Source of the DNA: an uncultured Bacilli bacterium
GTDB lineage: Bacteria; Bacillota_I; Bacilli_A; RF39; UBA660
Length of the DNA stretch: 64,000 nucleotides
Direction of reading: 5' to 3'
NCBI GenBank assembly: GCA_947598325.1
Contig: CANQFD010000007.1
Coordinates: forward strand, 1 to 64,000
Shown piece by piece: positions 3,001 to 38,022 of the stretch. A program made the position numbers and the translations under genes. Numbering within the stretch: position 1 is the first letter of the stretch; each line of letters opens with the position of its first letter. A model generated the notes under the pieces. That model was not told where the DNA came from. It made no database searches and saw only the letters and a program-made list of their open reading frames with translations.

Positions 3001-6000
3001 GAATCACCGGTTCCATTACCATCCATACCTTGTCCAAATTTATAGCCACTTGTTTGCGTTGCATATAATTTAGAATCAAAAACATCATCTGAAGATATAC
3101 CGCCGCCAGAACCAGGACTATATGTAAATGATGCTCCGCCTCCGCCGGCTGCTACCATTATTCGGGATTTTAAACTATTAAAACTATCCCAAGATCCTTC
3201 TTCTAGCCTTATATCTGTTGCTCCGCCTCCACCACCAGAAGTTTCATCATCAGAACCGTCCCAAGTACCTAAACCGCCACCATTATATCCACCTTTAGCA
3301 TTTTGATTTAGCACTCCATCTTCACCAGCACCACCAACATATATGAACAAGTTTAAACCTTTAGTTAAATATATTTCACCACTCGTATACGCTCCTTTAC
3401 CACGTATTGTTCCAACATTCTTGTTCATTAAGGATGCTCCACCGCTAGCGCCCCATAATTCTATTTTATATTCTCCTCTTATTGGAGCAATAAATGTTTT
3501 ATATTCTCCTGTATAGTCAAAAGTATATTCTTTTTCTACATCCACTTTTGTATAATTTATTGTATATACTGTTTCTGGAACATTTGGTGCAGTTACTGTG
3601 ATTGTAATAACTCCTGTTTTATCTTTTAGATGTTCATTCCCTTGAATTTTTACTTCTGCTTCACTATCAAATGTTTCTGTTATTATCTTTAATTCATATT
3701 CATTTTTTGGTATTTCTATATTATATTGATTTGTTAATGGATGAAAGTCTGGTTTTAAATCATTTTCATATCCATCTACTGTTAAATAGGATAATTCACT
3801 TGAATGTTCTCCTGGTTTTACTGTTTCTCTTGTTACATTAATAATGTATGTTCTTATGTTACCAAGTCTTCCTGTTACTGTTATACTTATTTGCTTTTTT
3901 TCTCCAAATTTTAATTCATATGTATCGAATCCTGTAACACTTGCATTTTCTGCATCTGAAAGAGTTCCACTTAACGTGAAATTTTGATCGTATTTTCCTA
4001 ATGCTAATGTATATTCTTCTATTGCTGGATCAAATGCTGGGCTTAATGTTCCATAATCTGATGTTAAATCACTTAAATAATTATCTTCTATTATTGTTAT
4101 AGGGAATATTTGTTTTGTTGATATATTTCCACTTCCACCATTTCCTGATTTTGCAGTTTGAGCTGGTGCTGCTGTATATCCTTGTTTACCTAATCCTCCA
4201 TTTGCTTGAATAGTTCCTTCTTCTATAAGTTTGTTATAAAATAAATTTATTGATCCTCCTCCTGAGGCTCCTCCAAATGATTGATTTCCATGTCCCGTAT
4301 CATATGTATCTATCCCATTTGATTCTATTGTTCCTTCATTTTTTAAACTATCTGAATATATTACAAGTAATCCACCTGTTCCTAGATTTACTGCAAGAGT
4401 ACCATAACCTTGTACTGCCCCAGTTGATGTTCCTACTCCTGTTTGGCATGGATTCCATTGATTCACTCCGAAACAATTTCCACCTATTGTTCCTTGTGCA
4501 TTACTCTGTGCATGCCATCCATGGTTTGCACTTCCTCCTCCAGCTCCACCAGAATATGATGTTCCTGCACTTCCAGCTCCTCCAATTGTTGTACTTGAAC
4601 TATATGATGACCATACATTGGCTCCTGCACCACCGCCACCTGTTTGTCTTCCTACTCCATCTTTTCCATTTTCTCCATTTATTCCATGATCTCCACCACT
4701 TGTTGATCCTAATCCTCCTTCTCCACCAACTTTTGGTACATATTCAAATGTACCATCTTCTTTTTGTAATAAGTATACATTTTCTCCTTCTATATTATGT
4801 GTTCCTCTTGCTGTCATACTTATTGTTCCTTTATTAGTTAGTGTTCCTTCTACATATATAAGCATTCCTTTTTTATATGTCAATCCACTTGTTGCATATG
4901 TGTTTGCTGTTAATGTTACCCCTTCTTCTATTGTTAAATCATTATGATATTTTACTATTAACATTCTATATTCGTCTGAATCATTTCCTAAGCTTACTAA
5001 CCCTTTTTCATCTGCATCTTCTGTTGTATATGTTTTATTCCCATAATAATTTATTAACTCTACTGGATATGTTATTGTTTCTATTTGACCTTCAGAACTC
5101 GTTTTTCCTGAAACTGTTATATCATATTTGCCATCTTGTGTTGGTGCATTTGTTACCCAAGAAATTATATCATTTAATGGAAGTGTTTTCTCGTAATTTA
5201 TTGTATATACTGTTTCTTGAACATTTGGTGCAGTTACTGTTATTGTTATTTTTCCAGAATCATTTTTAATATATTGATTGCCTTCAATTGTTACTTTAGC
5301 TTCTTTATCAAATGTTTCTGTTATTAAATTTAGGCCCATATCATCTTTTGAAATTTTTATATCGTATGTTTCTGTTAATGGGTGGAATTCTGGGTGCAAT
5401 AATCCTTCATGTCCTTCTATTTCTAATTTTGATAATTTACTATTATGTTCATCTTCTGGTAGTGTTTCTCTTGTTGCACTTATTTTATATGTTTTTATAT
5501 TTCCTGATTCACTTGTTATTACTATATTTATTTCTTTTGTTTCGCCTGATTTTATACTATATTTTCCAAGACCTGTTACTGTTAATTTTTCTGCATTTAA
5601 AAGAGTTCCACTTAATGTGAAATTTTGATCATATTTATCTAATGTTAATGTATATTCTTCTATTAATGGATTAAATGCTGGGCTTAGCTTTCCATAATCT
5701 GATGATAAATTTGTTAAATAATTATTTTCTGATAAAACTGGTGTAATTTTCGCATAGCCATTACTTTTTTTTGCATATTCGCTTATTGGAGTTTCAGATA
5801 CATTTGTAGTGCTTATTGTTCTTATTGACTCTTCAGTTGATTCTGGGCAGTTAAAACAATACATTGCTTTTCTATTTAATAATATATTTCCAATATATCC
5901 AGAGCCACCGCCAGCTCCACTTACATTAAAAGACGCTCCACCATAATAGCCACCGCCGCCACCTGGATAAGTAGAATTATTTGAATTAATCGAAAAATCT

Positions 6001-9086: not shown

Positions 9087-9111
9087 TGTGGTGACTTCTT
9101 TTTATGCACTC
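9087..9111. other. prophage left attachment site, 4-bp core plus phage arm
   Basis: The core TGTG (9087-9090) joins comEC on the left to phage DNA on the right. The phage arm ends in TTATGCACTC (9102-9111), the exact reverse complement of GAGTGCATAA at the other end (37996-38005). Confidence 0.88.
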
Positions 9112-25195: not shown

Positions 25196-25296
25196 AAAGT
25201 AGGGGGGATATGCACGAATCTGCACATTTTTTGAAGGCTCTCTCCTCGGTTTCTCATTAAGGCTTGATTTATCACCTCTAGGGGGGATATCAAGCC
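25196..25296. other. candidate cos/packaging region between HNH and terS
   Basis: Two copies of TAGGGGGGATAT (25200-25211 and 25279-25290) lie 79 bp apart in the only G-run-rich stretch of the late region. The second copy is inside a hairpin formed by GGCTTGAT (25261-25268) and ATCAAGCC (25289-25296). HK97-like cos phages place cos beside the HNH and terS genes, so this is the best packaging-site candidate. No cut site can be proven from sequence. Confidence 0.45.
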
Positions 25297-25631
25297 CTTT
25301 TTACTAGGTTTCCATCAGAATCAAACATATAATCTTTTCTTGTCACTTGGTCTTGATGATGTTCCAACTCATGACACTCTTTACATAATCCCTCAAGGTT
25401 GTTTTCATTAAGTGTAATATTATCATCATATACATTAGTGTTATCTAAGTATTCTTTATGATGTACTATTCCTATTCGTCTTTTATCTTTAGGAATCCAC
25501 TCACTTAATCCATCAACATAAACAGGCTTATGACATCTACTACATAAAAGATTCTGCTTTATCCATATATTTTTTCTAGCAGTTTTCCATGCCTTAGAAT
25601 TATAGAAATCTTTTCTTATTCCATAACTCAT
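25290..25631 (-). CDS. HNH endonuclease of the packaging module
   Basis: 113 residues. Motifs KDFYNSKAWKTARK, LCSRCHKPV (first CxxC), VHHKEY, ITLNENNLEGLCKECHELEHH (second CxxC and HNH core). This small HNH protein accompanies terS/terL in cos phages and is needed with terminase for cos cleavage in relatives such as HK97. It sits directly upstream of the candidate cos region and terS. Confidence 0.92.
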   Translation of the reverse strand: MSYGIRKDFYNSKAWKTARKNIWIKQNLLCSRCHKPVYVDGLSEWIPKDKRRIGIVHHKEYLDNTNVYDDNITLNENNLEGLCKECHELEHHQDQVTRKDYMFDSDGNLVKRA

Positions 25632-28241: not shown

Positions 28242-29633
28242 CTATCCCCCAACATAAACACCATTTTTATGTGTTATTCCTTCAATTTGCGGAATTATAC
28301 TATATATTTCGTCATTTTCAATACTATTTATTACATCACATACATATTTACTGGATTCCGCTAAATAGTCTGAAACTTCTTGAATATTACCAATAAAATC
28401 AAGCTTATTTGTCTTTTTATTTATACAACATACATTTCCTTTATATTTGCTAGTAAAAACAATTTTTTCATCTTGACTTTTAAACATAGAATTGAATTTT
28501 TCTATTGCTTTTAATTTTGCTTGTTGGGATATATGAGTATAAGTTTTTAATGTAATAGAAATATCAGAATGTCCTAAAATGTCACTGATGGTTTTTACAT
28601 CGATTCCATTTTCAATATTAATACTAGCGAATGTATGCCTTAAAGCATGAAATTTTATAGGTTCTACTCCTACTTTTTTCATAAAACTATTATAAAATTT
28701 TCTATATGATCTTGGTTCGATTGGCTTATGCGAATTGCTTAATATATAATCACTTTCATCTTTTTTTATTGTTTTTAATATTTCTATAATTTCATTTGTG
28801 ATTGGTATTTGTCTAATTGAATTTTTAGTCTTCCCAGGAGTAATAATTATTTTTGTTGGTTCTAATTCATCTAGTGGATTATATATTCTTTGTATTGTTT
28901 TATTAACATTTATAATTTTTTCTTCAAAATTAACATCTTTATATTGCAAAGCGCAAATTTCTCCAATTCTCATTCCTGTATATATACCTAACAAAATGCC
29001 AACACTTTTTGAAGATACATTTTTTAAAATATAGTCAATTATTTTTTTATATTCTTTTTCAGTATAAACTTGCTTTTTAGTTTCAATTTGTAATGTTTTT
29101 GGTATTTTAATTTGTTTAAATGCAAAATCAGGAAATATATGTTCTTCTTGTCCATCTCTTATAACTGCTTTAACTAGCAATAATGAATCCCTTATATAAT
29201 GTTCTGAAATACCTTTTTTCTCTTTACCACCTTTTTCCTTACACCAATATGCAAACATTTGAAGTAATTTATTATTAAATTGTTCACAAGGTATATCACC
29301 TAAACAAGGTATTATATTATACATAAATAAATTAACATAATTAGCATAAGTACTTTCTCTTATTTCATATTTCTTTTTTTCTAACCAGTATCCAGCATAA
29401 TACTTAAATATCTTCGTATTTACTTCTGTTGACAGTTCATATTTAATTATTTTATCTGGATTATCTGCAAGTTCTATTCCTAAATAATCAAATAACTTTT
29501 GTAAATCATCTAAACATACTGTTCCATTATTATTTAATATTTCTTCTACTCCCCATTCACTTGTATTTAATATTGGAGCAATATCTTTAAAATGATTATC
29601 AATTTTTTTAATTAATAATTCTTTTATTTTCAT
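28242..29633 (-). CDS. tyrosine recombinase with C-terminal NUMOD1-like domain
   Basis: 463 residues. Residues about 70-175 form the SAM-like core-binding domain (YAGYWLEKKKYEIRESTYANY). Residues about 190-385 hold a complete catalytic set: Arg in YTGMRIGE, His-x-x-Arg in HALRHTF, His in LGHSDIS and Tyr in KTYTHIS. The C-terminal 75 residues (CINKKTNKLDFIGNIQEVSDYL) resemble a NUMOD1-like DNA-binding module, an unusual addition. It is not next to either attachment site, and a serine integrase is present, so a role other than phage integration is inferred (element resolution, a nested element or DNA inversion). Confidence 0.85.
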   Translation of the reverse strand: MKIKELLIKKIDNHFKDIAPILNTSEWGVEEILNNNGTVCLDDLQKLFDYLGIELADNPDKIIKYELSTEVNTKIFKYYAGYWLEKKKYEIRESTYANYVNLFMYNIIPCLGDIPCEQFNNKLLQMFAYWCKEKGGKEKKGISEHYIRDSLLLVKAVIRDGQEEHIFPDFAFKQIKIPKTLQIETKKQVYTEKEYKKIIDYILKNVSSKSVGILLGIYTGMRIGEICALQYKDVNFEEKIINVNKTIQRIYNPLDELEPTKIIITPGKTKNSIRQIPITNEIIEILKTIKKDESDYILSNSHKPIEPRSYRKFYNSFMKKVGVEPIKFHALRHTFASINIENGIDVKTISDILGHSDISITLKTYTHISQQAKLKAIEKFNSMFKSQDEKIVFTSKYKGNVCCINKKTNKLDFIGNIQEVSDYLAESSKYVCDVINSIENDEIYSIIPQIEGITHKNGVYVGG

Positions 29634-29802
29634 TTTTCAATTTTCTAATATCCTCCTCTATATTTTCAATTTGTCTTTTTTTATATCCAAAACCATTATC
29701 ACCATTTGCTTTAATATCTTCTTGTATTCTTTTGATACACTCTTCTTTAAATTTAATTTGATTTGCAATAGATGGGTCTTTAATTAATTCTTTAAATTTC
29801 AT
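29608..29802 (-). CDS. small charged phage protein
   Basis: 64 residues (MKFKELIKDPSIANQIKFKE), helical and charged throughout with no known domain. It overlaps the downstream recombinase start by 26 nt. Function unknown. Confidence 0.5.
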   Translation of the reverse strand: MKFKELIKDPSIANQIKFKEECIKRIQEDIKANGDNGFGYKKRQIENIEEDIRKLKNENKRIIN

Positions 29803-29869
29803 TTTTACCTCTTTCTAATATTTCTAATATTTCCATAATATCAGTTCCCATAATAGCCCATTTTTCCAT
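29792..29869 (-). CDS. possible 25-residue peptide or frameshifted tail of the repeat protein
   Basis: Frame MEKWAIMGTDIMEILEILER continues upstream without a stop into the end of the repeat gene (NEVFNKIETLR). It may be a separate tiny gene or the original C-terminus of that protein, now out of frame. The ribosome site is weak. Confidence 0.3.
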   Translation of the reverse strand: MEKWAIMGTDIMEILEILERGKNEI

Positions 29870-29880
29870 TCGTAAAGTTT

Positions 29881-30528
29881 CTATTTTATTAAATACCTCG
29901 TTAATAATCTTGTCGTTTTGTTCCAATCTCCTGTGTTCCTATCTCCTGTGTTACAATCTCCTGTGTTCCTATATCCTGTGTTACAATCTCCTGTGTTCCT
30001 ATATCCTGTGTTCCAATCTCCTGTGTTCCTATCTCCTGTGTTACAATCTCCTGTGTTCCTATCTCCTGTGTTCCTATCTCCTGTGTTCCTATATCCTGTG
30101 TTACAATCTCCTGTGTTCCTATATCCTGTGTTCCTATCTCCTGTGTTCCTATATCCTGTGTTCCTATATCCTGTGTTACAAAAACCAGAATTTCCTGTAC
30201 CTGTATTTGCCATCTGCATAAATTCTTCTTTAGGTATTTCTCTAACTATTTTTATTTTGTTAGTTACTGATTTTGTTCCATCTTCAGAATCTTTTACTTC
30301 TCCTAATGCTTCTATTTCACAAAATCTATTTGTTTCAACATTAAAACTATAATAATTATCTACATCAAATAAACTTTTACAAAAGTGAAATCCATAATTA
30401 CAAATACCTATTGGTTCTTTTGTTTCATAAGTCTTTCCTACTTCATATTGAAATGGTTTATATCCTCCTGTACAACATAAATTTTCATTAAATCCTTTAT
30501 ATCCTTTTACTTTTTCAGTTTTCTTCAT
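29881..30528 (-). CDS. phage protein with 17 tandem NTG-type pentapeptides
   Basis: 215 residues. Residues 1-115 (VKGYKGFNENLCC, GICNYGFHFCKSLFDV, RFCEIEALGEV, KIKIVREIPKEEF) match a widespread DUF7666-like N-terminal domain. Then come 17 pentapeptides of the form N-T-G-(D/Y)-(R/C/W), likely a beta-helix, encoded by 15-bp tandem repeats. The end is abrupt (TTRLLTRYLIK), unlike related proteins that have a further C-terminal domain, so a frameshift at the repeat end is suspected. Function unknown. Pentapeptide-type helices can mimic DNA or bind protein, but nothing here shows that. Confidence 0.7.
   Translation of the reverse strand: MKKTEKVKGYKGFNENLCCTGGYKPFQYEVGKTYETKEPIGICNYGFHFCKSLFDVDNYYSFNVETNRFCEIEALGEVKDSEDGTKSVTNKIKIVREIPKEEFMQMANTGTGNSGFCNTGYRNTGYRNTGDRNTGYRNTGDCNTGYRNTGDRNTGDRNTGDCNTGDRNTGDWNTGYRNTGDCNTGYRNTGDCNTGDRNTGDWNKTTRLLTRYLIK
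29927..30181 (-). repeat. 15-bp tandem repeat, 17 units
   Basis: Seventeen contiguous 15-bp units (plus-strand consensus CTCCTGTGTTCCTAT), varying only at the positions that set the fourth and fifth residues of each pentapeptide. The length is likely to change by slippage or recombination. Confidence 0.9.
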
Positions 30529-30529
30529 A

Positions 30530-30838
30530 CTATAATTCCCTTTCTACTATTTTTAGTAACTTTATACAAAAATCGTATAAATTTTCTTCCTTAATTTTTA
30601 CTATTATTTTTTTATTATTTTTCTTATTTTCTATATACTTTCTTAATTTCATTTCTGTTAATATTTCTAATGCTCTTTCTTTTGTTTTGTAAAATCCTAA
30701 TGGAACATCACAATCATCTAAATCATCATATCTTATATCATATATTCCAAAACCATTTTCTTCTTCACAAGTAGCAACATATAATTTATTTACTTTTTCT
30801 AATATGTTTTTATCTTGACTTCTAATCCATAATTCCAT
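30530..30838 (-). CDS. conserved small phage/mobile-element protein
   Basis: 102 residues beginning MELWIRSQDKNILEKVN, with FGIYDIRYDDLDD and LGFYKTKERALEILTEM. This MELWIRSQD...YKTKERA pattern is common in small uncharacterised proteins of Firmicute mobile elements. Function unknown. It lies one base upstream of the repeat-protein gene. Confidence 0.6.
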   Translation of the reverse strand: MELWIRSQDKNILEKVNKLYVATCEEENGFGIYDIRYDDLDDCDVPLGFYKTKERALEILTEMKLRKYIENKKNNKKIIVKIKEENLYDFCIKLLKIVEREL

Positions 30839-30840
30839 AA

Positions 30841-31044
30841 TTATTCACCATCCTCAATAATACCTATTGTTTCGATTGGCTCATCATCTAGTGCTTTTAA
30901 AATACACTCTACATTTTGAATATCTAATCTATTTTCTTTTATTAATAAATTAAGATATCTTCTTAATGTTAAATATCTATCTTCAATTATTTTATAAGTA
31001 TCAATTGATTTATTATTTAAAACGTTATTCATTGCATCTATCAT
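30841..31044 (-). CDS. small phage protein, unknown function
   Basis: 67 residues from ATG 31044 (MIDAMNNVLNNKSIDTYKII), with AAGGAAG 8 nt upstream. Helical with an acidic end. It overlaps the upstream gene by 20 nt. No family is recognised. Confidence 0.5.
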   Translation of the reverse strand: MIDAMNNVLNNKSIDTYKIIEDRYLTLRRYLNLLIKENRLDIQNVECILKALDDEPIETIGIIEDGE

Positions 31045-31294
31045 TTTTTTCACTTCCTTGTAATATATTTAGTAGTTCATATACCTTATCAGTAGTAGAT
31101 AAATAAGGTAGTATATTTTTAATAAACACTATTGCTTTTTCATTTCTTGTTTTATATTTTTTGGTATCTGCTCTTGATACATTTAAAAATTGTTCTAATT
31201 GGTTTCTATAAAACTTACTATAATCTAAACTATCTCTTTCAAGTAAAGCCCTGCACCAATGTTCGTTCATTATTGATGTAATCTTTTCACCCAT
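31025..31294 (-). CDS. small phage protein, unknown function
   Basis: 89 residues (MGEKITSIMNEHWCRALLER, FYRNQLEQFLNVSRADTKKYKT). The TAATG overlap with the recombinase stop and the AAAGGATT site support this start. Mostly helical; not recognised. Confidence 0.5.
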   Translation of the reverse strand: MGEKITSIMNEHWCRALLERDSLDYSKFYRNQLEQFLNVSRADTKKYKTRNEKAIVFIKNILPYLSTTDKVYELLNILQGSEKNDRCNE

Positions 31295-32136
31295 TAATAT
31301 CGAATCCTTTCTAATTTATTTTTCTTTTCTTTGTTAGATGTCATAGTATATATTGCAGTTGTTTTTATATCGTTATGTCCTAAAATATCTCTTAGTTCAT
31401 CTAAATCAATACCATTTTCTTTACATTTTTTAGCGAATAAATGTCGCCATGCATGAGGATGTATTTTATTAGGATTAATTTTTGCTTGTTTAGATATTTT
31501 TTTTAATCTTCGCCATATGGTGCTATTATTTAACATCTTATCTTTTTTTACTGGACTAATAAAAATGTAGCCACTACTGATTTTATTTTCTTTACAATAA
31601 TTCTTTAATTCTCTTTTTAATTCATTTGTCATAATCAAAGTTCTTTCTTTTCCTTTGTTGTATGCACCTTTTATAAAATTACTATCTAGTGATTCTACTG
31701 TGAAATATTTTAATTCATCAATTCTAGCACCAGTATGAGCAAATATTTTGATAATAAAATACATATCCATCATATTTAGTTTTTTCGCCCATCTTAACAT
31801 TCTTTTATGTTCTTGTTCCCATATAGGGTCATCAATAGATGTTTTTTGTTGTTCTTTAAACTTTTTTAATGTACAATCATTTAATTTTAAGTATTTTAAA
31901 AACTTATTAACTATAACTATATATTTATTTTTTGATTTAACTTTAAATCCTTTTTCAGTTAGATTTTCTTTAAAATCAATCATTAAACTTTTATTAAGTT
32001 CAAACTCATCAGGCAAGAAGTCAATTAACTTATTTACTGCATTTCTATAATCACCTATTGTTCTTTTTGATTTTTCATCTAATCTTTCAGAATCAATAAA
32101 ATTATCTAGTTCTTTTTTTATTTCTTCTTTAGTCAT
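31294..32136 (-). CDS. second tyrosine recombinase (XerC/D-like)
   Basis: 280 residues. Residues 1-95 form a SAM-like N-terminal domain. The catalytic domain has Arg in HTGARIDE, HAWRH, LGHNDIK and Tyr in AIYTMTS, all intact. It lies among early replication genes rather than at a phage end. A role in resolving or circularising replicating phage DNA is possible, since no RecT/Erf-type recombinase was seen; this is inference. The gap 32137-32268 upstream holds nothing recognisable. Confidence 0.85.
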   Translation of the reverse strand: MTKEEIKKELDNFIDSERLDEKSKRTIGDYRNAVNKLIDFLPDEFELNKSLMIDFKENLTEKGFKVKSKNKYIVIVNKFLKYLKLNDCTLKKFKEQQKTSIDDPIWEQEHKRMLRWAKKLNMMDMYFIIKIFAHTGARIDELKYFTVESLDSNFIKGAYNKGKERTLIMTNELKRELKNYCKENKISSGYIFISPVKKDKMLNNSTIWRRLKKISKQAKINPNKIHPHAWRHLFAKKCKENGIDLDELRDILGHNDIKTTAIYTMTSNKEKKNKLERIRY

Positions 32137-32268
32137 ATTGACTTTACCTCTCTTTCTTCTTTATATACCTAGCAAGATAACCATAATATTATATTGCACC
32201 TATCAAATATCTATCTTTGCTTTATTTAATAAGGTTTTTTAGCATTTTTTAATAATCTATACTTTTTG

Positions 32269-32469
32269 CTATTTTTTAATTGGTTTTATCTTGGATAAAT
32301 CAACTAATTTACTACCATCTATATCAGATGGACAAGCTTTAATAATTGCTTTCGGAATTAAATTTTCTTTAAAATAGAAAAATGTATTTAATACTTCTTC
32401 TTTAGTAGATGAAGTATTCTTTTTGGATTCAATATATATTCTAGTAAGTTCTAATGCTATTTCACCCAC
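32269..32469 (-). CDS. small phage protein, unknown function
   Basis: 66 residues from GTG 32469 (VGEIALELTRIYIESK), chosen because GGAGGTG lies immediately upstream; the longer TTG-initiated version would include that site. Contains NTSSTKEEVLNTFFYFKENL. No family is recognised. Confidence 0.5.
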   Translation of the reverse strand: MGEIALELTRIYIESKKNTSSTKEEVLNTFFYFKENLIPKAIIKACPSDIDGSKLVDLSKIKPIKK

Positions 32470-32488
32470 TATAACACCTCCCAAAATT

Positions 32489-32746
32489 TTAATTATCTAA
32501 ATAATCATCTATTTTTCTTCTGAGTTTATCATCATATGTTCTAAATCCAATTAAATCTAATGCAATAAAATTATTTTCTATGTGATGTAAATTTTCATCA
32601 CTTACTTTTGTTTTATCTTTCATATTTTTAAATAAATCTCTAATCAATTGTTCATTGTATGTTATCGCTGGTGCTAATACTTTTAATTGTTCTGCATATG
32701 TAATTAAATATTCTAATTCTTTTTCACTAAACTTCACTTTTTTCAC
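32489..32746 (-). CDS. small helical phage protein
   Basis: 85 residues (MKKVKFSEKELEYLITYAEQ, LIRDLFKNMKDK, RTYDDKLRRKIDDYLDN). It overlaps the upstream gene by 20 nt and lies in a run of tightly packed early genes. Function unknown. Confidence 0.5.
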   Translation of the reverse strand: MKKVKFSEKELEYLITYAEQLKVLAPAITYNEQLIRDLFKNMKDKTKVSDENLHHIENNFIALDLIGFRTYDDKLRRKIDDYLDN

Positions 32747-32939
32747 CTACCATCTTTATTAATTCTTCATATTCTTCAATAGTCATATGAGTTTTCATAC
32801 AATACTTCTTTATTGATTCAATTAAATGAAATTGTCTATTTACTTCTTCATCAAACTTAATTAATAAATCCTCAACTTTTTGTTTTTCTTTTTTTAGTTT
32901 TTCTAGTTCTTGTTTTAGATTCAGTATTTCTTGTTCCAT
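32727..32939 (-). CDS. small coiled-coil phage protein
   Basis: 70 residues. The first 40 are a predicted coiled coil (LNLKQELEKLKKEKQKVEDL), then CMKTHMTIEEYEELIKMVG. It overlaps both neighbours. Function unknown. Confidence 0.5.
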   Translation of the reverse strand: MEQEILNLKQELEKLKKEKQKVEDLLIKFDEEVNRQFHLIESIKKYCMKTHMTIEEYEELIKMVGEKSEV

Positions 32940-33189
32940 CTTTCTCTCCTTTTTTTAATTCTTTTATTTCTTTTTTTAATTTAATTATTTCTTGATGTAG
33001 GTCAATAGTACTTTCAGTAAGGTCTTTTATTCTTTGTTCATATAAATCTCGTTGTAAAAGTTTTGTTTTTTTCTCAGTATTATATTGAATTATCTTTTCT
33101 TCTAATTCATCACATTTAACATTGTATTTCACTTGTAAAGTATTATATTTTTTTCTTGTCTTTAGATGTTCATATATATGATTAATCAT
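32872..33189 (-). CDS. coiled-coil protein with basic tail
   Basis: 105 residues from ATG 33189 (MINHIYEHLKTRKKYNTLQV), with GGAG 6-7 nt upstream. Long helical coiled coil (CDELEEKIIQYNTEKKTKL, DLHQEIIKLKKEIKELKKG) and a Lys/Arg/Thr-rich C-terminus. It overlaps the replisome organizer stop by 8 nt. It may bind nucleic acid through the tail; no family is recognised. Confidence 0.5.
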   Translation of the reverse strand: MINHIYEHLKTRKKYNTLQVKYNVKCDELEEKIIQYNTEKKTKLLQRDLYEQRIKDLTESTIDLHQEIIKLKKEIKELKKGEKDGTRNTESKTRTRKTKKRKTKS

Positions 33190-33994
33190 CTTCATTCTCC
33201 TCACCATCATTTCCCTCATTTAACCAATCATAATCAAATATTTCGTTTATTTCTTTTTGTTCTTCTTCTGATAATTCTCTATGTTTAGGTAGTTCATTAT
33301 CTTTTATTTCTTGTAGTGTTTTATATCCTGCAGTTTTCCAATTTCTTAATATTCCATTAACATAGTTAAATGTCCTTTTATTATTTAAAGTAGATATTTC
33401 TATTGCATATTTAATTATTTCTTCATCATACGACAACAACCAGTCATCTATCTTTTCTACTTCTATTGAACTTAAAGTTCTTCCAAAATTATTTTCTATA
33501 TACTCATATATAGTTGTAGTTTTAGATATAACTATATCTTTATCTTTATCTTTTAACTTTAGTTCTAGTTCTATCTTTGGTGGACACTTGTCCACCTCTT
33601 GTCTTCTTAATAATCTTTGTTGTTGTTTTTTAAATGCACCGAGGCTTTTAGAACCAATAAGATTTTCTAATTGAGTAAGATATATTTCACCATTATCTAA
33701 TATTTTTATTAATCCTATTTTTTTAAGTAATTCCATAGCGATTGTGACTGTGTCAAAATCCATTTTTGTCATCTCAGATAATTTTTTATTATCATATGGT
33801 ATTAACATATTTCCTACATTGCGAATTAAAATACCATTTGTTTTTAAACTTTTTAAACACAATTTTAAGTAAAAATAAGCATAATCTCGACCATTAGGTT
33901 TTTGGCTTTCTAACCAATCTATAGCATCATCATCAAAGAAATCTTCTTTTAATAATAACCAATAAAACTTTGTGTCTTTATCGTATTTAGCCAT
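33182..33994 (-). CDS. phage replisome organizer, DnaD-like
   Basis: 270 residues. Residues 1-120 form the Phage_rep_org_N winged-helix domain (DTKFYWLLLKEDFFDDDAIDWL, LSEMTKMDFDTV). A linker (QEVDKCPPKIELELKLKDKD) follows, then about 165-235 a DnaD/DnaB_2 C-terminal domain (YEYIENNFGRTLSSIEVEKIDDW, FNYVNGILRNWKTAGYKT). It opens the phage origin and loads the host helicase. The linker DNA holds a perfect palindrome, a candidate origin element. Confidence 0.9.
   Translation of the reverse strand: MAKYDKDTKFYWLLLKEDFFDDDAIDWLESQKPNGRDYAYFYLKLCLKSLKTNGILIRNVGNMLIPYDNKKLSEMTKMDFDTVTIAMELLKKIGLIKILDNGEIYLTQLENLIGSKSLGAFKKQQQRLLRRQEVDKCPPKIELELKLKDKDKDIVISKTTTIYEYIENNFGRTLSSIEVEKIDDWLLSYDEEIIKYAIEISTLNNKRTFNYVNGILRNWKTAGYKTLQEIKDNELPKHRELSEEEQKEINEIFDYDWLNEGNDGEENEDD
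33579..33596. other. candidate phage replication origin palindrome
   Basis: GGTGGACA-CT-TGTCCACC, a perfect 8-bp inverted repeat inside the replisome-organizer linker codons (EVDKCPP), followed by AAAGAT direct repeats. Origins inside the initiator gene are common in Gram-positive siphophages. Confidence 0.45.
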
Positions 33995-34105
33995 TTATTT
34001 TTTCCTTAATTCTTTAATTACTGTCTTAATCATTATTAGGATAATTGATATTCCTAATGTTATGATGATTGCTAATGCCAGTATTTCTAATGTTTTTAAT
34101 ATCAT
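33995..34105 (-). CDS. 36-residue single-span membrane peptide
   Basis: AGGAGG lies 7 nt before ATG 34105. The product MILKTLEILALAIIITLGIS continues to a basic KELRKK end, forming one membrane helix. It overlaps the upstream stop (ATGA). Function unknown. Confidence 0.55.
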   Translation of the reverse strand: MILKTLEILALAIIITLGISIILIMIKTVIKELRKK

Positions 34106-34341
34106 TTCTCGTCCTCCTCAATATCTTTGATTAAATGATAGATAGCATAATTACTAATATGTCCATATCTATTTTTACCTTGTGTCATTTCAGTTTCTAT
34201 ACCGAATCCTTTTTCTTGTAAAATAAATATTATTCCTGATAATCTAGTTGCACCATATCTTTTTATAGCCTCATTAGATGTAATTGATTTATATTTTCTT
34301 AAATGTGCGATGATATCAGTTATCTGACTTCTTTTAGTCAT
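34102..34341 (-). CDS. small helix-turn-helix protein of the early operon
   Basis: 79 residues from ATG 34341 (MTKRSQITDIIAHLRKYKSI), with GGGTGA upstream. TSNEAIKRYGATRLSGIIFILQEKGF is a winged-helix pattern seen in small phage DNA-binding proteins. It probably regulates early genes or assists replication. It overlaps the preceding membrane-protein gene. Confidence 0.6.
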   Translation of the reverse strand: MTKRSQITDIIAHLRKYKSITSNEAIKRYGATRLSGIIFILQEKGFGIETEMTQGKNRYGHISNYAIYHLIKDIEEDEK

Positions 34342-34555
34342 TTTCATCACCCACATTACATGTATAGAACTTATCGCCATCTTTTGTATGATAGGCTTTG
34401 ATTCCATATCCTTTTTCTGCACATTGCATTGATACTTTTTCAATGTGTTTTTCCATATCGTTATTTAAAATTGTTATTAATCCTAGAATTACAATTACTA
34501 ATCCTATTATTGCTAGTGAGTATTTTACCCGTGGTTTTAATCTATATCTTTTCAT
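34334..34555 (-). CDS. small membrane protein, early operon
   Basis: 73 residues. A basic N-terminus and one membrane helix (YSLAIIGLVIVILGLITIL) precede a short outer domain with two cysteines (QCAEKGYGI, FYTCNVGDEN). Function unknown. It overlaps both neighbours. Confidence 0.55.
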   Translation of the reverse strand: MKRYRLKPRVKYSLAIIGLVIVILGLITILNNDMEKHIEKVSMQCAEKGYGIKAYHTKDGDKFYTCNVGDEND

Positions 34556-34655
34556 TCTTTTTACCTCTTTCTTTTATTACATATTTAACCTTTATATTTT
34601 CTTGTTTTTCATAAAGTTCAATGAGTTTTTTTAAGAGGCTTTTTTCATCTTTCAT
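34542..34655 (-). CDS. 37-residue phage peptide, first gene of the early operon
   Basis: A strong AAGGAGG lies 6 nt before ATG 34655. The product (MKDEKSLLKKLIELYEKQEN) is helical and charged. It overlaps the next gene. The upstream 34666-34699 element is shared with the integrase leader. Confidence 0.55.
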   Translation of the reverse strand: MKDEKSLLKKLIELYEKQENIKVKYVIKERGKKNEKI

Positions 34656-34665
34656 AAAAATCCTC

Positions 34666-34699
34666 CTTATTTTGTTTTAATTTAGTTTAGCGACTAATT
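34666..34699 (-). promoter_or_regulatory. 20-bp regulatory element, early-operon copy
   Basis: Plus-strand 34680-34699 is the exact reverse complement of 36481-36500, and similarity extends imperfectly for about 13 more bases. On the minus strand it starts AATTAGTCGCTAAACTAAAT, with a TTAG-TCG-CTAA palindrome, directly upstream of the first early gene. It is probably a shared binding site for a phage regulator. Confidence 0.55.
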
Positions 34700-34931
34700 A
34701 TTGAGTTTTCTCAACTTTTTCTTTAAAAAAATATTCACTTATCTCATCATCATTAATTTCAAGCAATGCTGCCATTTTCTTTATTTCTGATGAATCAAAT
34801 TGAACTTGATTATTTATTCTCTTACTAAATACTTGTTCTGACATGTTTAATTTTTTTACAAAATTTGATTGAGAATTAAATTTTTCCTTTATTCTACCCT
34901 TTAATTTAGAATAATCAAATTCATACTTCAT
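34698..34931 (-). CDS. Cro-like/DUF739 helix-turn-helix regulator
   Basis: 77 residues (KLKGRIKEKFNSQSNFVKKLNM, SEQVFSKRINNQVQFDSSEIKKMAALL), a compact helix-turn-helix of the DUF739 type. It diverges from the CI-like repressor and shares its operators. Its own 3' end contains another operator (34701-34714). Expected role: lytic-side repressor. Confidence 0.85.
   Translation of the reverse strand: MKYEFDYSKLKGRIKEKFNSQSNFVKKLNMSEQVFSKRINNQVQFDSSEIKKMAALLEINDDEISEYFFKEKVEKTQ
34701..34714. promoter_or_regulatory. operator O1 at the 3' end of the cro-like gene
   Basis: TTGAGTTTTCTCAA, a perfect inverted repeat identical to O2 at 34958-34971. It adjoins the 20-bp shared element and could control the early operon start. 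Confidence 0.65.
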
Positions 34932-34957
34932 ATTCTTTTCACTTCCTTTCTTCGTGG

Positions 34958-35090
34958 TTGAGTTTTCTCAACCTCTATTATCAGTTTACACACTCTTTTT
35001 TATAAAGTCAACACTTTTTGTTGAGTTTTTTCAATTATTTACGCATATTATTGTTTTAATGTTGATTTTTCTCATTTTTATGTTTATAAT
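34958..35090. promoter_or_regulatory. divergent cro/cI control region with three operators
   Basis: Operators TTGAGTTTTCTCAA (34958-34971), TTGAGTTTTTTCAA (35021-35034) and TTGATTTTTCTCAT (35062-35075). The minus-strand cro promoter is TTGACT (35011-35006), 17 nt, TAAACT (34988-34983). The plus-strand repressor promoter is TTGATT (35062-35067), 17 nt, TATAAT (35085-35090). The third operator covers the repressor -35 and the first lies just downstream of the cro promoter. Confidence 0.8.
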
Positions 35091-35111
35091 AATAATGAAA
35101 GGAGATATAAT

Positions 35112-35786
35112 ATGGACAATAGTTTTTCTACTAGATTAAAAAAAGCAATGGCTCTACGAGGTATTAAGCAGTCAGAACTATCTAGTAAGGCTCATTTAGA
35201 TAAATCACTTATCAGTAATTATGTAAATGGAAATTATAATGCCAAGCAAGAAAACATTCATGCTATTGCCCTAGCACTTGATGTTGATGAGGGATGGTTA
35301 ATGGGATATGATACTTCATTAGAAAGAAAAGATGACATATCTTCTATTAATATAGATAATGCTAGATACATAAAAACATCTACTCAGATGGTTAAAATAC
35401 CTATTCTCGGGAAAATACCTGCTGGAATACCCATTGAGGCTATAGAGGATGTTTTAGGATACGAAGAAATCCCTATATCAATGTTAAATAATGATACTAA
35501 TTTTTTTGCACTTAGAGTTGAGGGCGACAGTATGTTCCCTGATTACAAAGAGGGAGATGTACTTATAGTAAAACAACAAAACGATTGTAATTCAGGTGAT
35601 GACTGTGTAGTAATGGTTAATAGCAACGATGCTACTTTTAAGCGAGTTATAAAACAAAATAATACTTTAATTTTAAAACCTTTAAATAATCAATATGAAC
35701 CTTATGTATTCACTAGAGAAGATGTTATTAATATTCCAGTTAAAGTTTTAGGTGTTGTTATCGAAATAAGGAGAAGAAAAAAATGA
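35112..35786 (+). CDS. CI/LexA-type phage repressor with S24 autoprotease domain
   Basis: 224 residues. Residues 4-63 form an HTH_3 (FSTRLKKAMALRGIKQSELS, SLISNYVNGNYNAKQE). The hinge carries the Ala104-Gly105 cleavage bond, and the peptidase domain has Ser140 (GDSM) and Lys177 (TFKRV). It maintains lysogeny by binding the TTGAG-N4-CTCAA operators. RecA-stimulated self-cleavage would link induction to the host SOS response. The downstream gene overlaps its end by 4 nt. Confidence 0.94.
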   Translation: MDNSFSTRLKKAMALRGIKQSELSSKAHLDKSLISNYVNGNYNAKQENIHAIALALDVDEGWLMGYDTSLERKDDISSINIDNARYIKTSTQMVKIPILGKIPAGIPIEAIEDVLGYEEIPISMLNNDTNFFALRVEGDSMFPDYKEGDVLIVKQQNDCNSGDDCVVMVNSNDATFKRVIKQNNTLILKPLNNQYEPYVFTREDVINIPVKVLGVVIEIRRRKK

Positions 35787-36436
35787 ATAAATATGCAATT
35801 GAATTGAAAATATTAAAATGGAAACCATGGATACATATAGCATTAGGATTATTTACTTATCTTATATGGTTTGTTATTCTACTAATTATTTATATAGATT
35901 ATAATAATTCAAACAAAGACTCAACAAAAACAATAAAAACCATAAATAATACAACTGTTAAACATCCAGTAAAAGCAGTTTATTTCAAAGTTGCTGGTAT
36001 AACATATGAAGATAGACAAGAAGAAATAAAAAAAATATTAAGAGATGCTTTTAAATTAGGATATTATGAAAAATATGATGGTATGACAAATGCTGAAATA
36101 AAAGACTTTGGTGATACTATCTATGAGGCAAACAATATATATTTTAATAACTTGAAATTAGTTCCTACTAAATATGAAGATAAAGATGCCATTGAGATTC
36201 ATGTGGATGATTTATCCGACAAAAATAAATTAATAATGGTAGGATATGTACCTAAAAAAAATATAAATGAAGTATCAGACTTCTTAAAATATAAAGAAGA
36301 ACATCCTGAATATGAATATAAAGAAAATGTTAATTTAACTGGTGGAAAAGGTAAAAGAGTTAATTTTGATGATGAGATGGAAACAGTTGAATTAAACTAT
36401 GGAATTGATATTGCATTAGAATTATATGAACAATAA
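35783..36436 (+). CDS. membrane-anchored HIRAN-domain protein
   Basis: 217 residues. One hydrophobic helix at about 19-40 (IALGLFTYLIWFVILLIIY) is followed by a HIRAN-like domain at about 63-165 (YFKVAGITYEDRQEEIKKIL, LKLVPTKYEDKDAIEIHVDD, IMVGYVPKKN). HIRAN domains bind DNA ends or modified DNA in helicases and phage proteins. Co-transcribed with the repressor, it is probably expressed in the lysogen, so a superinfection or lysogenic-conversion role is plausible but unproven. Confidence 0.65.
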   Translation: MNKYAIELKILKWKPWIHIALGLFTYLIWFVILLIIYIDYNNSNKDSTKTIKTINNTTVKHPVKAVYFKVAGITYEDRQEEIKKILRDAFKLGYYEKYDGMTNAEIKDFGDTIYEANNIYFNNLKLVPTKYEDKDAIEIHVDDLSDKNKLIMVGYVPKKNINEVSDFLKYKEEHPEYEYKENVNLTGGKGKRVNFDDEMETVELNYGIDIALELYEQ

Positions 36437-36463
36437 AAAAAGACTTACTGCTGGAACAGTAAG
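36437..36463 (-). terminator. minus-oriented terminator between HIRAN and integrase genes
   Basis: CTTACTG/CAGTAAG stem (36463-36444) followed on the minus strand by TCTTTTTT. It would stop transcripts entering antisense from the comEA-comEC side. Confidence 0.55.
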
Positions 36464-36480
36464 CCGAATGAAAAATCACA

Positions 36481-36514
36481 AATTAGTCGCTAAACTAAAT
36501 AAAAAAAATAAGGT
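36481..36514 (+). promoter_or_regulatory. 20-bp regulatory element, integrase copy
   Basis: Exact inverted copy of 34680-34699. It is followed by an inverted repeat GTTATAATG (36513-36521) / CATTATAAC (36541-36549) before the integrase ribosome site AGAGG. Confidence 0.55.
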
Positions 36515-36584
36515 TATAATGTTTATGGATTTTTCTATATCATTATAACAAATTTTCAATAAAAAGAAAAGAGGTTATAATAAA

Positions 36585-37991
36585 ATGAATAAAATAATTA
36601 GAGTTGGAATATATATAAGAGTATCTACTGAGGAACAAGCCAAACATGGTTATTCAATAGATAGTCAAAAAACTAGATTAATAACCTGGGCAAAAGAACA
36701 TAATTATCAAATAGTAGATGTCTATGCAGATGAGGGAAAGTCTGCTCGTACTAAGATTTTTAATCGTAAAGAATTGTTGCGATTACTTGATGATGTTAAA
36801 GATGATAAAATTGATAGAATTATCATTTGGCGACTTGATAGATGGTTTCGTAATGTCGCTGATTATTATCGTATTCAAGATATTCTTGATAAACACAATG
36901 TTGATTGGGAATGTTCTGATGAAGATTTTAATACATCTACTTCTAATGGTCGTTTATATCTTAACATTAAGTTATCTATCGCACAAAATGAATCAGACCA
37001 AACATCTGATAGGATTAAATTTAATTTTGAAAATATGGTACGAAATAAAAGACCTATTTCAGGTGCTTTGCCTGTAGGATATATGGTAGCAGGTGAAAAA
37101 CAAAATAAGAGAGTTGTGAAAGACCCTTCCCTATCTCAAATGGCTATTGATATGTTTGAAAAGTTTGAAGAAACATTATCTTTAAGAGCCACTACTCAAT
37201 ATCTTAACGAAACATATCCTCATAGACCTATTGGCTATGAGAGAGTTAAAAAGATGCTACAAAATAGTATGTATCATGGTGTCTATCGTGATGTCGAAGA
37301 TTATTGCGAACCATATATCACTAAAGAAAGACAAGATAATATCATTAAACTCATTAAGAAAAACCATAGACCTAATAAACCATCAGGACATGTATTTATT
37401 TTTAGTGGATTAATTAGGTGCTATGATTGTGGTCGTAGAATGGGTGGCTCTAGAGCATCTAGAAAACATACTAAACGAGGTGTAGTGACTGAAATTATAA
37501 GATATGGTACTTATAAATGTTGTAATCATTTTTTAGATTGTAGATGTTCTAATAATCATACTATTAACGAAGATAAACTTGAAAGATGGATGATTGATAA
37601 TTTTCTTGCTAAATTAAATGAACATGTTATTTCAATAGAAACTGCAGAAGAGAAAAAAACTAAAACTAATAACATTAATAAAATAACTAATCTTAAAGAT
37701 AAATTAGAGAGATTAAATGAGTTATATCTTGATGGTAGAATATCTAGAGAAAAATATGATAATGATTATTTAGATACAAAAAACAAAATTAAAGAACTAA
37801 ATATAGATGATGAACTTGATTCTAATCGTAATCTTTCTAAATATAAAGAAATAATTAAAGATGCCAATGTCGTAGATATTTATAATAAATTAGATAGAAA
37901 ACATAAGAGATTGTTTTGGTATGAATATATTGACCATATTGAACAAGATTTTGATAATATTAATGATAATTGGTTAGTTTTTTTTAAATAA
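36585..37991 (+). CDS. int: large serine recombinase, phage integrase
   Basis: 468 residues. The N-terminal resolvase domain has catalytic Ser14 in IRVST, followed by DEGKSARTKIFNR, IIIWRLDRWFRN and SIAQNESDQTSDRI. A recombinase domain (GALPVGYMV, RATTQYLNE) follows. A zinc ribbon (CYDCGRRM and CC...CRC) and a coiled coil complete the large serine integrase layout. It catalyses attP x attB strand exchange and, with a directionality factor, excision. No excisionase partner is obvious. It lies 4 bp from the attR phage arm. Confidence 0.96.
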   Translation: MNKIIRVGIYIRVSTEEQAKHGYSIDSQKTRLITWAKEHNYQIVDVYADEGKSARTKIFNRKELLRLLDDVKDDKIDRIIIWRLDRWFRNVADYYRIQDILDKHNVDWECSDEDFNTSTSNGRLYLNIKLSIAQNESDQTSDRIKFNFENMVRNKRPISGALPVGYMVAGEKQNKRVVKDPSLSQMAIDMFEKFEETLSLRATTQYLNETYPHRPIGYERVKKMLQNSMYHGVYRDVEDYCEPYITKERQDNIIKLIKKNHRPNKPSGHVFIFSGLIRCYDCGRRMGGSRASRKHTKRGVVTEIIRYGTYKCCNHFLDCRCSNNHTINEDKLERWMIDNFLAKLNEHVISIETAEEKKTKTNNINKITNLKDKLERLNELYLDGRISREKYDNDYLDTKNKIKELNIDDELDSNRNLSKYKEIIKDANVVDIYNKLDRKHKRLFWYEYIDHIEQDFDNINDNWLVFFK

Positions 37992-37995
37992 TTTT

Positions 37996-38022
37996 GAGTG
38001 CATAACACTAGGTGTCCTTGTG
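37996..38022. other. prophage right attachment site, phage arm plus 4-bp core
   Basis: Phage arm GAGTGCATAA (37996-38005), 13 nt, then core TGTG (38019-38022) joined to comEC. Ligated to the other end it forms a 48-bp attP with perfect 10-bp inverted arms around a 28-nt centre. Confidence 0.88.

Follow-up and report, generated by a model that had tools for sequence, protein, structure and literature searches.

Why should a temperate phage that integrates by means of a serine integrase carry two more site-specific recombinases in the interior of its genome? The question is raised by a prophage of an uncultured Bacilli bacterium, contained in the 64,000-nucleotide stretch of DNA analysed here as a whole (hereafter, the window). 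The first-pass annotation counted three recombinase genes in it and suggested that the two internal ones, here called rec1 and rec2, might serve genome circularisation or dimer resolution, or be relics of nested elements. The answer that we arrive at differs between the two genes.

The prophage and its integration enzyme

The 28.9-kb prophage splits comEC, and its ends are defined by a CACA core (Table 1). When the flanks are joined in silico at CACA, the ComEC sequence (...YILLTHGDFDHMGEA...) is back and the metal-binding motif LTHGDFDH is regained; in congeneric genomes comEC is uninterrupted, encodes ~700 residues and aligns with the split gene to residue ~509. The interruption falls inside the HxDxDH metal-binding motif. 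Excision of the prophage would restore comEC, and lysogeny may switch competence; A118-like phages are known to switch competence through comK.

All three recombinase genes are indeed present and intact, and both tyrosine recombinases are catalytically complete, with the R..K..HxxR..H..Y set kept in each. As had also been noted, neither adjoins a phage end: Rec1 and Rec2 are both internal, in the early operon, and show neither of the hallmarks of an integrase, a gene at the phage end and a core common with the chromosome. The att core goes with the serine integrase, not with Rec1 or Rec2, and it is this enzyme in comEC, not the Rec2 module, that is the integration system. The reported absence of RecT/Erf and SSB agrees with the lack of any match among the proteins scanned. 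That of a DnaC homologue has to be revised, given that a DnaC-type function is present in the form of a DnaD/DnaB_2-type replisome organiser. An HNH endonuclease gene (25290-25631) adjoins the terminase genes and is suggestive of cos-type packaging. Elsewhere in the prophage, a DUF7666 protein (29881-30528) includes an NTGxRNTGD pentapeptide-like repeat run, with at least 16 tandem 15-bp units in its coding sequence.

Table 1. Features of the prophage and of the putative Rec2 site (window coordinates)
Feature	Position	Strand	Basis
attL core CACA (comEC strand)	9087..9090	.	Flank joining restores comEC; alignment with congener comEC
Rec1, phage-integrase-type tyrosine recombinase, 463 aa, with N- and C-terminal extensions	28242..29633	-	Pfam Phage_integrase and Phage_int_SAM_3
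64-aa ORF overlapping the rec1 start and travelling with rec1	29608..29802	-	70-81% identical in L050 and L051, with the same overlap
Rec2, Xer-type tyrosine recombinase, 280 aa	31294..32136	-	Pfam, PDB profiles, AlphaFold/Foldseek, catalytic residues
Conserved noncoding element, proposed Rec2 recombination site, ~120 nt (core and accessory part)	32155..32285	-	Start of blastn block, nhmmer, model R1
Element core	32171..32198	-	Exact pattern match; alignment of 62 cores; coordinates checked
Core right arm TTATCTTGCT	32171-32180	-	
Core central region TATTATGG, 8 bp	32181-32188	-	
Core left arm TGCAATATAA	32189-32198	-	
Accessory motif AAAAAGTAT, at near-fixed spacing from the core	32259..32267	-	Invariant or near-invariant alignment columns
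DnaD/DnaB_2-type replisome organiser, accompanies Rec2	33182..33994	-	Pfam Phage_rep_org_N and DnaB_2, PHROG 186; synteny with L001 and L002
Large serine integrase, the integration enzyme	36585..37991	+	Pfam Resolvase, Zn_ribbon_recom and Recombinase; ends 28 bp from attR
attR core CACA (comEC strand)	38019..38022	.	Flank joining restores comEC; alignment with congener comEC

Rec2, a Xer-type partner of the replication module

Rec2 matches the Pfam family Phage_integrase (E 2e-24) and, over nearly its whole length, PDB profiles of XerC-like, XerA and XerD proteins, the XerC-like 4a8e covering positions 7-278 of 279. The AlphaFold model (pLDDT 89) consists of two domains, with XerA giving the best Foldseek matches and with matches to Cre-like folds too. 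By sequence and predicted fold, Rec2 is a simple Xer-type enzyme, with a core-binding and a catalytic domain, no arm-binding domain, and a complete R, K, H, R, H/W, Y set (R138, K161/K163, H228, R231, H254 and Y263), these catalytic residues being invariant in alignments of 14 and of 16 homologues. The dN/dS values, 0.04-0.11, show a gene that is under purifying selection and not decaying.

Relatives at 93 to 68% identity come from seven viral contigs and the genomes G006, G010 and G016, and a profile search brings the viral contigs to 89 in all; among 147 relative genomes, Rec2 is found in G000, G006, G010, G016 and G044, plus a distant form in G104. The DnaD-type organiser upstream of Rec2 is kept in the phages L001 and L002, and the enzyme of integration varies beside it: a serine integrase in L002, a tyrosine-integrase-like protein near the repressor end in L001 and L004-L006. 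Judged by this synteny, Rec2 is a conserved partner of the DnaD-type replication module, whatever the type of integrase.

A conserved noncoding element beside rec2

When Rec2 regions are compared by blastn, the matches repeatedly start 140 bp upstream of the gene (window 32276). The cause is a noncoding element that nhmmer finds in the window (E 2e-21) and at most Rec2 loci (E-values down to 1e-24), and that consists, in the window, of a 10-8-10 imperfect dyad, TGCAATATAA-TATTATGG-TTATCTTGCT, with accessory sequence at fixed spacing. Across the relatives, the layout is AAAAAGTAT, A-rich blocks and a core TGCAATATAA-N8-TTATCTTGCA, with nearly fixed spacing, and the alignment of 62 cores shows inner ATAA/TTAT arms like those of dif and cer. 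An additional small upstream dyad is present in about half of the sites and absent from the one in the window. At L058/L059 the spacer is one base shorter. Scans of the collection and of the genomes run with a wrong spacer length, or with a wrong spacing for the ATTCGTTGC arm, were not counted as negatives.

How specific is the association with Rec2? The element model R1 gives 66 bits for the window site, which is its sole significant match in the window and in the whole genome; in a whole-genome scan the site count is 1, and the host chromosome outside the phage has none. A search of the 147 relative genomes with the element only returned G000, G006, G010, G016 and G044 and one weak match, so that the element alone picks out Rec2-bearing genomes. 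Likewise, the DNA pattern alone leads to contigs that mostly encode Rec2 homologues, down to ~45% identity, and the element persists between phages that have unrelated flanks and as little as ~40% protein identity. The association is imperfect in both directions. The element is missing at some Rec2 loci, mostly the more distant ones, and occurs without Rec2 in some records, several of which are fragments and six of which carry or resemble the clade with a replacement recombinase described below.

All 82 scored sites, near-duplicate contigs included, lie on the rec2 strand. The element stands before rec2 (n=32) or after it (n=27), up to several kb away, and the next start codon follows at a median of 21 nt. 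The first-pass annotation had called for a search for core repeats; this was the right test, but no core repeats were found inside the window alone, and the site comes into view only by comparison with relatives. The hairpin-like arms prompted an RNA reading, which was rejected: Rfam gave no match, the core does not covary, and the sites share no consensus fold.

Probable traces of recombination at the core

If the element is a recombination site, exchanges at its core might have left traces in related phages. In one clade of isolate prophages, what comes after the same site is either Rec2 (L152, L153, L171) or another tyrosine recombinase, shorter at ~217 aa (PHROG 216, E 2e-39; L148, L150, L151, L154, L157, L165). 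The flanks reach 98-99.7% identity, and it is at the core end that one gene gives way to the other. Two phages that are 99.96% identical over 4.7 kb (L098/L099) cease to match just past the core, and in another pair (L116/L119) 100% identity over at least 300 bp stops at the core end; in L186/L188, the match also switches at +27. These junctions are those seen when assembled contigs are compared, as distinct from recombination products, and on the right, the swaps of small genes and recombinases that follow the core stop at gene ends or ribosome-binding sites, with no second core. A breakpoint scan places 3 of 104 ends of high-identity blocks near the core against ~1 expected, a weak enrichment, and phage mosaicism combined with selection that keeps the element could place breakpoints there as well.

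In L185-L188, the small genes directly 3' of a C-type core differ between otherwise similar phages. In L157, the central 8-mer of the core near 3699, CCTAAATA, is the exact reverse complement of that of its sister phages, TATTTAGG, with unchanged flanks; hairpin template switching could also explain this flip.

A different kind of evidence comes from the central region. Among 38 whole records, 21 have a single site (palindrome-artefact weak matches removed) and nine have several co-directional ones. In none of 11 genomes with two or three co-directional sites is the central 8-mer repeated, and in 10 of the 11 the first spacer base differs between the sites (T/C, or T, C and G in G148); in single-site genomes this base is T in 24 of 25 cases. 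The contrast is significant (Fisher 5e-7, or ~1e-4 after lineages were collapsed by eye), although these statistics treat kinship loosely and the collapsed value depends on our own grouping of lineages. The two sites of L077 and L078 differ by the first spacer base alone (TATTATGG/CATTATGG). Because strand exchange requires a matching central region, sites with different spacers in one genome should not recombine together. Taken together, the replacement of the recombinase, the junctions, the spacer differences and the orientation indicate a working recombination site, and we consider it probable that the element is the true site of Rec2.

Rec1, an accessory gene

The case of Rec1 is different. 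The protein matches Pfam Phage_integrase (E 5e-33), with the catalytic residues R222, H329, R332, H355 and Y365, and has a dN/dS of 0.09-0.14, again a mark of purifying selection; its AlphaFold model has a pLDDT of 33. A NUMOD1-like C-terminus was considered and dropped for want of Pfam support. Copies that are 91-93% identical are found only in L050 and L051, two otherwise divergent phages that both have Rec2; there Rec1 precedes Rec2, and in the window phage it follows it. In the close relatives L001 and L002, Rec1 is missing and the interval, ~450-470 bp, holds other small genes, and no close relatives elsewhere were detected among the viral contigs and 291 family genomes. On this pattern of gene content, rec1 and the overlapping 64-aa ORF form an accessory two-gene module that is exchanged between phages.

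The proposals for the two genes accordingly fare differently. Among related phages, Rec2 is conserved beside its replication module and Rec1 is not. The idea of circularisation or dimer resolution, advanced for both, gains in the case of Rec2 from the replication-module partner and the site-like element. The shared flanks of the three Rec1 copies contain no attachment site of its own, and we do not find both genes to be recent insertions with such sites. Furthermore, with dN/dS at ~0.1, neither Rec2 nor Rec1 is decaying, and the notion of relics of nested elements is unsupported for either.

What does the Rec2 module do?

With one site in the phage and none in the host chromosome, the reaction can only join one phage genome copy with another. 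Rec2, presumably as a tetramer, would bring two copies of the element together, cut where the 8-bp central region meets the imperfect inverted arm on either side and exchange the strands. The AT-rich accessory sequence beside the left arm would probably allow only the correct geometry, as it does in cer and irs. Acting on two phage genome copies, the reaction would interconvert multimers and monomers, the most likely outcome being the resolution of multimers produced by DnaD-type circular replication. Where a phage has several sites, central regions that differ, mainly in the first base, would keep the intervening DNA from being deleted. We infer catalysis by Rec2, the direction of the reaction and its biological role from what is observed, namely conservation of the element, its association with Rec2, orientation, natural junctions at the core, spacer differences and catalytic residues. 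Multimer resolution as the role of the module, an analogy with known systems, we rate at about even chances; the explanation as a whole, a site-specific recombination module owned by the phage that mostly resolves multimers, seems to us somewhat better than that. A point against resolution is the HNH gene by the terminase: it suggests cos packaging, to which monomers would bring no obvious advantage.

Could the element instead be a promoter, an operator or a leader RNA of the early genes, with Rec2 as a regulator that binds to it? The core contains TATAAT, the sites are always co-directional with the genes and usually just 5' of a start codon, a co-orientation and a 21-nt distance that fit a regulatory element as well as a recombination site, and MrpR of SPbeta is a regulator with a tyrosine-recombinase fold (PMC10516654). 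However, in the 62 sites a -35 motif is not enriched (mean match 2.26; shuffled sequences, 2.58) and an extended -10 is absent, the transcript start would fall in the conserved right arm and dyad, and the catalytic residues that MrpR has lost are all kept by Rec2 in 16 homologues. Regulation does not predict the first-base differences among three copies (T, C, G), and the RNA variant has neither an Rfam match nor core covariation, nor a hairpin in the accessory part of the window site. We therefore deem this reading unlikely; given that promoters are also found inside the TnpI and cer sites (PMC7157771, PMC5357621), a promoter may nevertheless lie within the recombination site. The same small probability attaches to the possibility that the module is chiefly a device for exchange between co-infecting phages, in which matched sites recombine and heterospecific pairs swap the intervening cassette. 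Near-identical phages do differ by swaps of the recombinase or of small genes 3' of the core, the left junction being at the core end, and laboratory cassette exchange relies on heterospecific sites, but the right junctions lack a second core, most genomes have one site, and the benefit to the phage would be indirect.

Still less probable, in our estimate, is circularisation by Rec2 of terminally redundant linear DNA after injection, as with Cre/lox in P1. This role would suit an enzyme that is catalytically complete, resembles Cre in its two domains and has a single site in each genome; yet the HNH gene suggests cos ends joined by ligase, and the site lies in the early operon, ~7 kb from the terminase genes, where a short terminal redundancy is unlikely to include it. 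Finally, extra integrase-like genes are common in phages, and streptococcal phages have a mid-genome recombinase with no assigned role, so both genes might be leftover integrases and the element an intergenic region conserved by descent only. This is highly improbable, considering the dN/dS of ~0.1, the conservation of the element where proteins fall to ~40% identity amid unrelated flanks, and its movement relative to rec2. Multimer resolution at a site of its own thus remains the reading that we prefer for Rec2.

Likeness to known systems

The closest parallel in the organisation of the site is the TnpI/irs system of Tn4430 and Tn5401, with a single tyrosine recombinase and a core of inverted motifs plus accessory motifs by its gene (PMC7157771), an arrangement that the Rec2 element reproduces. 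In these transposons a TnpA transposase and terminal inverted repeats are linked to the recombinase, whereas the genes around Rec2 in the window include no transposase; here the context is a phage replication module, the accessory motifs are not obviously arm repeats, and a second recombinase family can replace Rec2. XerS/difSL, XerH/difH and XerA/dif also have one Xer-type enzyme and a site that can adjoin its gene (PMC5357621), but these systems are chromosomal with 6- or 11-bp central regions, whereas Rec2 comes with an 8-bp centre, an accessory part of ~75 nt and temperate phages as carriers. Nor does the element conform to Xer/dif (11-bp arms, 6-bp centre, chromosome terminus), being phage-borne, 10-8-10 and one per genome, or to integron IntI/attC, there being no cassette array and no conserved fold. 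ColE1 cer (XerCD, ArgR, PepA) shares the 8-bp centre, the long accessory sequence on the left-arm side and, on the reading preferred here, multimer resolution (PMC5357621), but uses the host XerCD, whereas Rec2 is encoded by the phage.

Among phages, the tyroviruses of Bacillus have three tyrosine recombinases, a dyad site by one of them and a proposed role in dimer resolution (PMC9703825). They resemble the window phage in the three recombinases and the dyad site beside one, but differ in genome size (160-170 kb), in an 11-6-11 site and in the location of the gene in the structural module. Erysipelothrix phage SE-1 has a Rec2 homologue (34%) beside DnaD, a separate integrase and two sites, TATACAGG and CATACAGG, that differ by one base; its gene is annotated only as integrase, and the arms have diverged. 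P1 encodes a simple tyrosine recombinase, Cre, that acts on loxP, a dyad site with an 8-bp spacer. The likeness to Rec2 lies in this combination; loxP, however, has no accessory sequence, and P1 is a plasmid prophage whereas the window phage integrates by a serine integrase. In the Streptococcus phages Javan64, Javan214 and Javan565 (L207, L208, L209), noncoding TGCAATATA/TTGCAT-like dyads lie just 3' of a mid-genome recombinase that resembles the Rec2 replacement; many streptococcal phages may be organised on the same principle.

Implications

Simple tyrosine recombinases on mobile elements have already been catalogued (PMC8138268). In the open-access literature that we searched, no published account of the site, of the heterospecific rule or of the recombinase replacement was found. 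To our knowledge, additional 'integrase' genes in phage interiors mostly go without explanation; for Rec2 there is now a proposed partner site, a reaction that can be tested and a rule, set by the first base of the spacer, that predicts which sites recombine. One may speculate that many temperate Firmicutes phages have a Xer-like module with deliberately incompatible sites (T, C or G first) that allows natural cassette exchange between co-infecting phages besides multimer resolution, an extension that we regard as rather doubtful. If the explanation proposed here is true, temperate phages would have, next to integration and homologous recombination, a third layer of DNA handling of their own, some mosaic breakpoints of phage genomes would gain a mechanism, and sites with matching or differing spacers would provide new orthogonal tools for recombinase work.
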